The notes below the pieces were generated by a model, which saw nothing but the letters and a program-made list of their open reading frames with translations, did no database searches and was not told where the DNA came from. A DNA stretch of 46,471 nucleotides from Candidatus Harrysmithiimonas galli (lineage in GTDB: Bacteria; Bacillota; Bacilli; CAJFEE01), in the NCBI GenBank assembly GCA_904373265.1, contig CAJFEE010000021.1:1-46471 (forward strand). The letters are read 5' to 3'. The position numbers were made by a program, and so were the translations under genes. This document shows positions 12,201 to 45,307 of this stretch, piece by piece; within the stretch, counting starts at the first letter, position 1; each line of letters opens with the position of its first letter.

Positions 12201-13247
12201 ATGAATCAAAAAATAAAGTTGTCCATCGGTCTTTCTGCCGTTTTGTGTGTTTTTTTTCTGTTGCTTTTGTTGCCTGCATTTATTGTTTTGCAAGGTCGGT
12301 CTCCTGAGTCGCCACCCAATGTGAAGATTTCTCAGCCAATTGAGTCGCAGATCAAAAAGGAAGAAGCAGCAGTTGAGGTAGATTCAGAACCGGAACAGGT
12401 TATTACGGTTTACCGTGCCAATCAGGAAACCGTTGAGAATGTGGATTTGAATGATTATGTATTTGGTGTGCTGGCTGGTGAAATGCCAGCATCGTTTGAA
12501 ATGGAAGCACTGAAGGCACAGGCAGTTGCTGCACGAACCTATATTGCACAACTTGTCAGCCAAAATGGTGGTAAGAGTGATTTGCCTGAAGGAGCAGATG
12601 TAACCGATACAGTGCAACATCAGGTGTACTACAGTAACGCCGAGTTAAAGAAACTTTGGGCTGCTGACTATCAGTGGAAGGCAGAGAAAATTCGGCAAGC
12701 TGTTGAAGAAACCGATAATTTGATTTTAACGTATGAAAATCGTCCGATTCACGCATTGTTCTTCTCAACAAGTAACGGTTATACCGAACATGCTGAATAT
12801 TATTGGAAAAATCCATTCCCATATTTGAAATCGGTAAAGAGCCCTTGGGATTTGGATTCGCCAAAATATTTGAAGGAACAGACGTTTACACTTGATGATT
12901 TTAATAAAAAACTGGAAGTTTCTGTAAAACCCGGACAAAAACTGTTAAGTTCTGTTAAGCGCACACCAGGTCAGGCTATTGCCTCTGTCAAAATTGGAGG
13001 AGTGGTTTTTACTGGACGGAAAGTGCGTGAGCAGCTCGGTCTTGCATCAGCAGATTTTTCCATGAAATGGCAAGGGAAGAAAATTGTGGTGACTACAAAA
13101 GGGTACGGGCATCAGGTGGGGATGAGTCAGTATGGTGCCAATGGAATGGCGAAGAATGGGAAAACGTTTGAAGAAATTTTGTTGTATTATTATCAAGGTG
13201 TGACCCTAGAGCCTGGCTTGTCATTTTTTGTCGATGGAAAAATATAA
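12201..13247 (+). CDS. spoIID: Stage II sporulation protein D (SpoIID)
   Basis: A 348-residue membrane-anchored peptidoglycan lytic transglycosylase needed for engulfment of the forespore; in Bacillus it works with SpoIIM and SpoIIP in the mother cell. The N-terminal anchor is LSAVLCVFFLLLLLPAFIVL (about 12-31). The SpoIID/LytB domain begins near residue 80 with DYVFGVLAGEMPASFEMEAL, which includes the catalytic-type Glu in GEMP, then KAQAVAARTYI. SSNGYTEHAEYYW-type and GYGHQVGMSQYGANGMA motifs follow toward the C-terminus. GGAGGAAA lies upstream of ATG 12201. Expression from SigE is expected from family knowledge. Confidence 0.95.
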   Translation: MNQKIKLSIGLSAVLCVFFLLLLLPAFIVLQGRSPESPPNVKISQPIESQIKKEEAAVEVDSEPEQVITVYRANQETVENVDLNDYVFGVLAGEMPASFEMEALKAQAVAARTYIAQLVSQNGGKSDLPEGADVTDTVQHQVYYSNAELKKLWAADYQWKAEKIRQAVEETDNLILTYENRPIHALFFSTSNGYTEHAEYYWKNPFPYLKSVKSPWDLDSPKYLKEQTFTLDDFNKKLEVSVKPGQKLLSSVKRTPGQAIASVKIGGVVFTGRKVREQLGLASADFSMKWQGKKIVVTTKGYGHQVGMSQYGANGMAKNGKTFEEILLYYYQGVTLEPGLSFFVDGKI

Positions 13248-23383: not shown

Positions 23384-23444
23384 GCATATTCCTCTTTTTG
23401 TTTGCATATAAGTGAGTATATCTGTCAAAAAAAGAGGTGTTGGT

Positions 23445-23876
23445 GTGAAATATGTGAAAGCGGCCGATGATAAAGATATTGGACAAGTCCAAGCATTTTA
23501 TCGGCAAGGAAAATTGGAAGTAGAAGTCCAACAGGATGAAATGCGAAATAAATTTTTGTTAATTGATGATAAGAGCGTGTTGTACGGGGTTATGGGGTAT
23601 GAAGGTAAGGGTGTGCATGCTTTATTAAAAGAGTGTATCATTTCTCCTGAAGTACATTCCGTTGAATTGTATGCGTATTTTCAGGGTGTAATTGGTTATT
23701 TAAAGCAAAAAGGTTTTGAACAAATTTATATTTATACACCGCATCCCAATATGCAGACACTTTTTCAACAGTTGGATTTCCAGATAGTTGAGAAAGAGAT
23801 TCGAGCCTGTACAGCAAATTTTTGGAAAACTAAGCTAGATATTCATGCAGAAGGTATATGGTTTATTTGTGGATAA
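23445..23876 (+). CDS. GNAT-like acetyltransferase domain protein, weak match
   Basis: A 143-residue protein. It starts MKYVKAADDKDIGQVQAFYR, typical of a GNAT N-terminal strand and helix, then a strand pair (FLLIDDKSVLYGVMGYEGKG), a helix with VIGYLKQKGFEQIYIYTP and a late NMQTLFQQLDFQIVEKEIR like the GNAT C-terminal helix and strand. The acetyl-CoA loop (Q/R-xx-G-x-G/A) is not clear, so catalytic activity is uncertain. GTG 23445 is chosen because AGAGGTG is five bases upstream; the frame is open to 23412. Its last codons overlap the first DnaA box of the cluster. Confidence 0.6.
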   Translation: MKYVKAADDKDIGQVQAFYRQGKLEVEVQQDEMRNKFLLIDDKSVLYGVMGYEGKGVHALLKECIISPEVHSVELYAYFQGVIGYLKQKGFEQIYIYTPHPNMQTLFQQLDFQIVEKEIRACTANFWKTKLDIHAEGIWFICG

Positions 23877-24055
23877 AAAGTTGTATTTATCCACATTTTT
23901 ACAGAAGTTATTCACAAATTGTGTATAAATTACCAGTTTTTGTAGATTGAGTATGTGAAATGCTTGAAGTGAAACAAAGAAAAGAGGAAAAAAATGAAAC
24001 AGACAGAAGTAAGGATTGTGGAAAAATTATCCACAAATCAACAGACTTATCCACA
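23868..24055. promoter_or_regulatory. DnaA-box cluster at ywlC
   Basis: Perfect TTATCCACA boxes occur at 23887-23895, 24027-24035 and 24047-24055 on the plus strand and 23868-23876 on the minus strand. One-mismatch boxes occur at 23908-23916 (TTATTCACA), 23920-23928 (minus strand, TTATACACA) and 24018-24026 (minus strand, TTTTCCACA). Seven boxes in 188 bases is far more than chance for a 9-mer. The cluster spans the ywlC promoter region and its first codons. Confidence 0.8.
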
Positions 24056-25046
24056 ATTGGAACGTGCGGCGGCTCTGATTCAAGAGGGTGAAGTGGTGGC
24101 ATTTCCAACAGAAACGGTATATGGTTTGGGAGCAAATGCATTGAGCGCCAAGGCTGTTCGGAAAATATACAGAGCCAAAGGTAGACCCAGTGATAACCCC
24201 CTCATTGTACATATTTCATCTGTGGATATGTTGGGGACATTGGTTGATGCCATTCCAAAGTCAGCACAGAAATTAATGGATGTATTTTGGCCAGGACCAC
24301 TTACGATTGTTTTTCCGAAACAGGCAAATGTTCCGGACTGTGTAACTGGAGGATTGAGAACAGTAGGTATACGTATGCCAAATCATCCAATTGCTTTGGA
24401 TTTGATTCGGCAGGCTAAGGTACCCATTGCTGCACCAAGTGCAAATATATCAGGACGCCCGTCTCCGACTACAGTGCGGCATGTAATTGAAGATATGAAT
24501 GAGCGTATTCCATTGATTATTGATGGCGGAGATACCCAAGTCGGGCTGGAATCAACAGTGATTGACTGTAGCCGTTCGGTTCCGATTATTTTGCGCCCTG
24601 GGAAAATTACAAAGGAAGAAATAGAAGCGATTTTAGGTCAGACAATTGATGAAGCAATGGATCATAGTGGTTCTGATGTTTTGGCGCCCTGCGCTCCTGG
24701 TATGAAATATCGGCATTATGCACCTCAAGCAGAGGTAAAGCTGGTTGCACATTCTGAAAAGTTGGTACAAGAAGCCATATGGCAGCAAAAAAAAGCAGGG
24801 AAGTCTGTCGGCGTTTTGTCAACGAATGAAATTTGTCAAACTGTTCAAGCGGCAGATCGTGTTTTTTCTTTAGGTGCAGCTGGAGATTTGACCATGTGTT
24901 CGCAAAGGTTGTATGATGGTCTCAGAAACTTTGATGACTACCGAATTGATGTAATTTTGGTTACGACGGTTGAAGAAACAGGTGTTGGAAAAGCCATTAT
25001 GAATCGTCTGGCAAAGGCCAGTGAAGAAGTATCGGATTTACTTTAA
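23994..25046 (+). CDS. ywlC: L-threonylcarbamoyladenylate synthase (Sua5/YwlC)
   Basis: A 350-residue Sua5-type enzyme that makes threonylcarbamoyl-AMP from threonine, bicarbonate and ATP, the first step of tRNA t6A37 modification. The N-terminal YrdC domain has RAAALIQEGEVVAFPTETVY, GLGANALSAKAVRKIYRAKG, RPSDNPLIVHI, APSANISGRPSPT and the STVIDCS strand. A linker leads to the C-terminal Sua5 domain (APGMKYRHYAPQAEVKLVAH). AGAGGAAA precedes ATG 23994. The first 20 codons contain two perfect DnaA boxes, which forces an unusual N-terminal extension (KLSTNQQTYPQLERA) before the YrdC domain. Confidence 0.95.
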   Translation: MKQTEVRIVEKLSTNQQTYPQLERAAALIQEGEVVAFPTETVYGLGANALSAKAVRKIYRAKGRPSDNPLIVHISSVDMLGTLVDAIPKSAQKLMDVFWPGPLTIVFPKQANVPDCVTGGLRTVGIRMPNHPIALDLIRQAKVPIAAPSANISGRPSPTTVRHVIEDMNERIPLIIDGGDTQVGLESTVIDCSRSVPIILRPGKITKEEIEAILGQTIDEAMDHSGSDVLAPCAPGMKYRHYAPQAEVKLVAHSEKLVQEAIWQQKKAGKSVGVLSTNEICQTVQAADRVFSLGAAGDLTMCSQRLYDGLRNFDDYRIDVILVTTVEETGVGKAIMNRLAKASEEVSDLL

Positions 25047-44263: not shown

Positions 44264-45307
44264 ATGATAACAGAGCAAGTGCTTCGTACACATATTGCCC
44301 AGGTTACTGATCCTTTATTGGGTGTAACTTTGGCAGAAACTGAGGGAATTTTGGAGATTCGTATTAACGAAGAAAAGAATCATGTCAGTTTAAAAATTGG
44401 GATCGCTGAAACAGGTGGTGGCGAGCAGTTACATATGCAAAATCAGATCGTTGAAATTGTGAAGGGTCTAGGTGCCAATACAGTTGGTTTGCGTTTTGAA
44501 AAGCTACCAGATGCAACCATTGCGAAATTTGTATCCGAACAGGAAAATCCAATGCAAAATGCAACGGTTATTGCGATTGCTTCTGGGAAAGGAGGGGTTG
44601 GAAAGTCAACAATAACAGCAAACCTGGCGGTTGTTCTGGCAAAAAAAGGAAAAAAAGTTGGATTAATTGATTGTGATATTTATGGCTTTAGTATTCCGGA
44701 TATGATGGGGATTGAGCAAGGACTAAGAGTGGAAAATGAAAAAATTATTCCGGCTGAACGTTTTGGTGTGAAAGTGATGTCTATGGGTTTTTTTGTTGAG
44801 GATAATTCTCCAATTATTTGGAGGGGACCGATGCTTGGAAAAGCCATCAGTCAATTTTTTGAAGATGTTGCATGGGGCGAATTGGATTATTTATTGCTTG
44901 ATTTGCCTCCAGGAACCGGTGATGTGCAACTGGATTTACATAAGATGCTGCCAGATTTTAAAGAAATTGTTGTAACAACGCCGCATCCAACAGCAGCTTT
45001 TGTTGCGACACGTGCAGCAACCTTGGCTTTAAAAACAGAACATGAACTTATTGGAGTTATTGAAAATATGTCTTATTATGTCAGCAAAGAAACTGGCGTA
45101 AAGGAATATATTTTCGGAAAAGGCGGCGGAGAGATTTTGGCAAAAGAGGTTGGAACAGAACTTCTTGCACAAATTCCATTGGAGCAGCCGATTTATGAAG
45201 TTCATTCTTTAGAAAAATCACAAGAATTTGCACCTTCTATTTATAAAGAAAACGATCCGAATCTTAAATATTTTGAACAAATTGCTGATAAAATCTTAGC
45301 ACATTAA
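44264..45307 (+). CDS. salA: Mrp/NBP35-family P-loop ATPase, SalA (YbaL) type
   Basis: A 347-residue cytoplasmic ATPase. An N-terminal MIP18-like region of ~90 residues (VTDPLLGVTLAETEGILEIR) leads to the deviant Walker A ASGKGGVGKSTITANL, then LIDCDIYGFSIPDMMG and LLLDLPPGTGDVQLDL. The CxxC iron-sulfur motif of true Mrp proteins is absent: the segment IENMSYYVSKETGVKEYIFG has no cysteine. This matches B. subtilis SalA, a regulator, rather than an Fe-S carrier. The neighbourhood (ybaK, cwlD) supports that. Regulatory targets cannot be inferred here. Confidence 0.88.
   Translation: MITEQVLRTHIAQVTDPLLGVTLAETEGILEIRINEEKNHVSLKIGIAETGGGEQLHMQNQIVEIVKGLGANTVGLRFEKLPDATIAKFVSEQENPMQNATVIAIASGKGGVGKSTITANLAVVLAKKGKKVGLIDCDIYGFSIPDMMGIEQGLRVENEKIIPAERFGVKVMSMGFFVEDNSPIIWRGPMLGKAISQFFEDVAWGELDYLLLDLPPGTGDVQLDLHKMLPDFKEIVVTTPHPTAAFVATRAATLALKTEHELIGVIENMSYYVSKETGVKEYIFGKGGGEILAKEVGTELLAQIPLEQPIYEVHSLEKSQEFAPSIYKENDPNLKYFEQIADKILAH

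Follow-up and report, generated by a model that had tools for sequence, protein, structure and literature searches.

Why does a dense group of DnaA boxes stand at the start of a t6A-synthesis gene, away from oriC, and has it been kept there for a purpose? The question is raised by the window analyzed here (the whole stretch of 46,471 nucleotides examined from Candidatus Harrysmithiimonas galli), in which the boxes straddle the start codon of ywlC, also named tsaC.

DnaA Boxes at the Start of ywlC

Within the 188 bp at 23868-24055 we located four exact DnaA boxes (TTATCCACA) and three boxes with one mismatch, each at the position given in the initial annotation, and used the Bacillus subtilis consensus TTATNCACA (PMC4447404) for looser matching. 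With seven boxes in 188 bp, the group counts as an extra-origin cluster under the definition of at least three DnaA boxes at an average spacing below 100 bp, as quoted in PMC7561715. The span likewise runs, as had been described, from the end of the upstream open reading frame into the first ywlC codons. Counted from the tsaC ATG, the outermost box is exact, on the - strand (23868-23876; -126), and overlaps the stop codon of the upstream frame. It is followed by a distal triplet comprising an exact box on the + strand (23887-23895; -107), the one-mismatch box TTATTCACA on the + strand (23908-23916; -86) and the one-mismatch box TTATACACA on the - strand (23920-23928; -74), the latter two still matching the B. 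subtilis consensus. The last three boxes lie inside tsaC: the weak one-mismatch box TTTTCCACA on the - strand (24017-24025; +23) in the codons V-E-K, an exact box on the + strand (24027-24035; +33) in L-S-T, and another exact box on the + strand (24047-24055; +53) in Y-P-Q.

The host gene is a genuine tsaC and the ortholog of ywlC; beginning with the ATG at 23994, it encodes an L-threonylcarbamoyladenylate synthase of 350 aa (23994-25046, + strand) which matches TIGR00057 over the cut-off (E=3e-69) as well as PF01300 and PF03481, the Sua5 C-terminal domain (Sua5_C) being present. The upstream open reading frame (23412-23876, + strand, 154 aa) occupies the place of B. subtilis ywlB; its earlier description as GNAT-like holds at best loosely, as the frame has an ArsN2 match below the cut-off only and no Pfam match. 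The intergenic gap upstream yielded no sigma-70-like promoter in the tsaC direction. Downstream, the order is ywlC, an MntP/YtaF-like gene, a gene for an LMW phosphatase, rpiB, a TIGR01440 gene, glyA, upp and the atp genes. This order, like the surroundings of the cluster generally, matches what we take to be the arrangement in B. subtilis, and we see no local rearrangement here, contrary to the rearranged chromosome supposed in the initial annotation. The DnaA of the host (L002) has a canonical box-binding domain (Bac_DnaA_C, E=7e-32) with the GRDHTTV motif, and DnaA presumably binds the cluster in this organism.

B. subtilis has eight high-affinity DnaA regions, and one of them, with nine sites and sub-micromolar binding, lies upstream of ywlC (PMC4447404). 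Moreover, ywlC is repressed by DnaA in that species (PMC4447404; PMC12112137), and a PywlC-lacZ reporter covering -240 to +73 drops in activity when DnaA doubles (PMC12112137). The initial annotation was right to name ywlC as an extra-origin DnaA site of B. subtilis. The cluster in the window resembles the B. subtilis one (region 6 of PMC4447404 and one of the six of Okumura 2012) in lying at the same gene, on the same side of it and next to a ywlB-type upstream neighbor, with seven sites against nine, the comparison covering gene, side, neighbor and number of sites; however, three of the boxes in the window are in tsaC codons.

Rarity in the Genome and Sister Clusters

To place the cluster in its genomic context, the genome (G000; 2,696,930 bp in 59 contigs) was scanned by pattern search, with a complete listing of exact TTATCCACA boxes, of which there are 59. 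By chance, 0.0041 exact boxes are expected in 188 bp, and the probability of at least four is 1.2e-11 for one such interval and 1.7e-7 genome-wide. At least four exact boxes within 250 bp occur at only three places, namely oriC, the gcp/tsaD junction and the ywlC site, so that comparable density at many unrelated loci, which the initial annotation had named as an outcome that would count against its proposal, is not observed. The oriC is bipartite, with boxes at C13:43339-43527 and a further pair at 44990-45038 that together flank dnaA; it lies with dnaA-dnaN on contig C13, whereas the ywlC site is on C21 and is thus outside oriC, as had been claimed.

The gcp/tsaD cluster (C6:75245-75416, equivalent to L001:5246-5417) holds four exact boxes and two TTATACACA boxes between the 3' ends of tsaD/gcp and a gene for an ABC-F ATPase, the same junction at which a B. 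subtilis cluster is listed as "downstream of gcp; downstream of ydiF" (PMC4447404 Table 1). Two exact and further one-mismatch boxes are found at C27:13690-13711 (L003:5691-5712, the cluster extending to 5733), between YyzF (PF14116) and an RlmH that among PDB entries matches YydA (1to0) best, and one exact and seven one-mismatch boxes occupy approximately 290 bp upstream of yqeG on C17 (L247). The yydA and yqeG/sda loci are also B. subtilis DnaA-box clusters (PMC4447404 Table 1), although the genome of the window has fewer perfect boxes at both, and only a single weak box is present at the trmE-jag junction. The ywlC site is thus one of several extra-origin clusters in the same genome, and with the gcp/tsaD, yyzF-yydA and yqeG sites found at the same gene junctions, four of the six non-origin clusters of B. 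subtilis have counterparts here, the search having covered these sites and trmE-jag. The yyzF-yydA (rlmH) cluster also occurs in most of the relatives sampled (L217-L246), often as a pair of - strand boxes 12-13 bp apart, and even in family f92, which is without the ywlC cluster.

Conservation Across the Class

To assess how widely the ywlC cluster is distributed, TsaC loci were collected from approximately 100 genomes of the GTDB class of the window and anchored on the peptide PTETVYGL, giving 90 genomes from 59 genera and 35 families, and TTATNCACA boxes were counted over the 310 bp that precede the anchor region. At least two boxes are present in 45 of the 90 genomes, representing 32 genera and 21 families; no locus reaches two with the reversed pattern, and downstream sequence yields 0.047 boxes per 310 bp. 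The long conservation that the initial annotation had guessed at is therefore borne out, with a geometry shared among these upstream regions, and several of the genomes carrying the cluster have a GC content above 0.55. In other classes of the phylum the cluster was found in none of 48 genomes. Within the class, approximately 40% of the families sampled are without it, including f86 (Staphylococcus-like), f102 (Streptococcus-like), f2, f92-f94 and several GC-rich families, as is genus g169 of f82, so the ywlC cluster is dispensable.

The sites in the window and in B. subtilis are linked by intermediates of the same layout, both through the spacings shared over many families and through one genome (f3 g5) which has the ywlC cluster and comes from a near relative of B. 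subtilis, its RlmH being nearly identical to YydA 1to0. Because of this near relative the sampled class is probably Bacilli; it also includes some very GC-rich families. A protein search for relatives among named genomes returned two distant matches only, a Peptococcaceae MAG (L007) and a member of Cyclobacteriaceae (L008). The window also encodes spoIID (12201-13247; TIGR02870 over the cut-off), so the host is likely a spore-former.

The distribution bears on whether the host gene matters at all, or whether any early-replicating DNA near the origin would serve equally well for titrating DnaA. Where the genome is complete, ywlC clusters are seen only at distances from dnaA within 16% of the chromosome, and the ywlC genes located at 18-50% have none; in B. 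subtilis, deletion of all six clusters leads to early initiation, which is partially relieved when one is put back, according to the summary of Okumura 2012 in PMC5295017. However, cluster-less ywlC genes near the origin also exist, the effect of distance is not significant (Mann-Whitney P=0.14 for ywlC and 0.08 for gcp) and is confounded with phylogeny and GC content, and pure titration predicts neither a fixed geometry nor the tracking of the same genes. Origin distance as a factor in cluster presence is only suggestive, and we regard titration indifferent to the host gene as a tenable reading that we nevertheless lean against.

Fixed Spacing and Dual Coding

The boxes recur at set distances. 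With > denoting a box on the + strand and < one on the - strand, the arrangement < 30 > occurs in eight families, > 12 < in seven and > 21 > in five, the box at 23887-23895 sharing its spacings with five families. The window reproduces the distal > 21 > 12 < triplet to the base, and its < 30 > pair is formed by the boxes at 24017 (the weak member) and 24047; the exact box at 24027-24035 is additional to the shared layout. Inside the gene, the boxes hold a fixed codon register relative to PTETVYGL, those at -88 and -76 being written T-GTG-GAT-AA (x-V-D-K/N) and that at -58 T-TAT-CCA-CA (x-Y-P-Q). The box at 24017-24025 is in register -88, where relatives have TGTGGATAA, encoding V-D-K/N, and the box at 24047-24055 is in register -58, common to many families; in the Enterococcus-like family f81 the pair is shifted to -79/-49 with the spacing still 30 bp.

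As this peptide recurs in register across families, the in-gene boxes might be a by-product of a conserved protein motif (V-D-K/N ... Y-P-Q), an explanation to which we give almost no credence. When the expected number of box-compatible genera is computed from codon usage in the rest of the same gene, the -88 box is found in 13 of 16 genera (1.5 expected), the -76 box in 6 of 8 (1.0 expected) and the -58 box in 9 of 12 (1.0 expected), codon choice thus standing approximately nine-fold above the codon-usage expectation. Similarly, TGTGGAT is the spelling used for V-D at 41 of 52 places in the leader, compared with 35 of 198 in the remainder of these genes, our preferred control (P=2e-16, although P values that treat genomes as independent are too small because the genomes are related, and the genus-collapsed test is fairer). 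At -58/-49 the residues vary (Tyr or Cys, then Pro, Ser, Thr or Ala) while the 9-mer mostly remains TTRTNCACA, and the NCA codon of the > box is A-ending in all but one case. Furthermore, boxes are present upstream of the gene as well, and the TsaC proteins of other classes are without the motif. As codon choice follows the boxes rather than codon usage while the residues drift, selection acts on the DNA site. A second control for V-D codons, drawn from neighboring open reading frames (12 of 34 and 5 of 10 box-written), was dropped, as several of these frames apparently lie in or across clusters, though L083, L094 and L095 resemble ordinary genes. Further exact boxes occur deeper in tsaC, recurring in-frame at +137 and +252 from PTETVYGL in families f95, f108, f82 and f81.

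Inverted boxes could alternatively act as RNA hairpins, one terminating the upstream gene and another folding in the tsaC mRNA leader. The first inverted pair, together with a T-run, does give a terminator-like call on the + strand (23868-23895; 10 pairs, 3 GC). However, relatives are without the layout of this pair, there is no Rfam match, and the N base on the right of the < 30 > pair is variable (C in 8 cases, and T, G and A in 2 each) while its left-hand partner is constant, which means that the pair does not covary; we consider hairpins very unlikely to account for the boxes. The pair and T-run at 23868-23895 nonetheless resemble a weak intrinsic terminator of the upstream gene.

The tsaD Cluster Across Classes

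The sister cluster downstream of tsaD, which in this genome is the last gene of tsaE-tsaB-rimI-tsaD, was surveyed in the same class and beyond it. Of the 56 genera and 33 families sampled within the class, 31 and 19, respectively, have at least two boxes; in other classes (L270-L299) the same holds for 18 of 30 loci, representing 17 of 27 families. Outside the class the region averages 2.23 boxes per 560 bp, compared with 0.045 in the flanks and none for the reversed pattern, and the boxes share a strong orientation bias (61 to 6). Two abutting boxes at a distance of exactly 9 bp recur in 12 families outside the class and 7 inside, and the genome of the window has such a pair too (TTATACACATTATCCACA at L001:5300-5317). 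Judged by these sequence comparisons, the tsaD cluster is older and more deeply conserved than the ywlC cluster.

That the most deeply conserved sister site comes after another t6A gene invites the proposal that the boxes serve mainly for regulation of tsaC by DnaA, coupling the DnaA level to translation capacity that depends on t6A, with titration as a by-product. The straddling of the ywlC start codon, the fixed reading-frame register and the repression of ywlC in B. subtilis are all consistent with this. Conversely, the cluster at tsaD comes after the gene, away from the promoter, the yydA and yqeG/sda clusters of B. subtilis are away from t6A genes, and clusters have been lost while tsaC or tsaD was retained; regulation as the main role is in our judgment rather doubtful. 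A broader conjecture, which we consider speculative and unlikely, is that DnaA and t6A synthesis have been coupled since early Bacillota, the tsaD cluster with its abutting tandem pair spanning the classes and the tsaC cluster being added in the class of the window, where its boxes settled into the coding frame of TsaC, so that initiation would be tied to translation capacity beyond the soaking up of DnaA.

Proposed Function and Implications

Collectively, the available evidence makes it probable that the cluster is orthologous to that at B. subtilis ywlC, predates many family splits, binds DnaA, draws on the free pool and represses ywlC. The simplest reading is that it may do both jobs, holding DnaA and shutting ywlC. 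In such a scheme, ATP-DnaA would load on the distal module (23887-23928) and on the proximal module (24017-24055) within the first tsaC codons, and a DnaA oligomer possibly joins the two across approximately 190 bp. The cluster would withdraw DnaA from the free pool and so damp initiation at oriC, jointly with the gcp/tsaD, yydA and yqeG clusters, and tsaC would be repressed when DnaA is plentiful.

The ywlC cluster is an already known type of site; the depth of its conservation, its dual coding and the link to t6A appear unreported. Our search of the open literature found no report of class-wide ywlC conservation (earlier mention is possible, for example in Okumura 2012), of a fixed reading-frame position of DnaA boxes in tsaC or of a phylum-wide tsaD cluster (for both of which earlier mention is also possible). 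Discussions of DnaA sites outside oriC in B. subtilis usually treat them as a trait of that species. The presence of the ywlC site in 21 of 35 families, its fixed geometry, its codon-embedded boxes and the occurrence of the tsaD site across classes indicate that selection favors these places, and raise the question of why two t6A genes host DnaA-box clusters. The defined positions offer a way to separate titration from gene regulation, by synonymous box-breaking changes in ywlC.

The datA locus of Escherichia coli is similarly a DnaA-box locus outside oriC that reduces initiation (PMC5295017). It differs in acting with IHF through hydrolysis of DnaA-ATP and has neither sequence nor positional homology to the ywlC locus. 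In E. coli K-12, we take datA to lie between glyY and queG (L300, 4392650-4396046; boxes at L300:3678-3927). This presumed datA region is two genes from tsaE, also a t6A gene, which is probably a coincidence.
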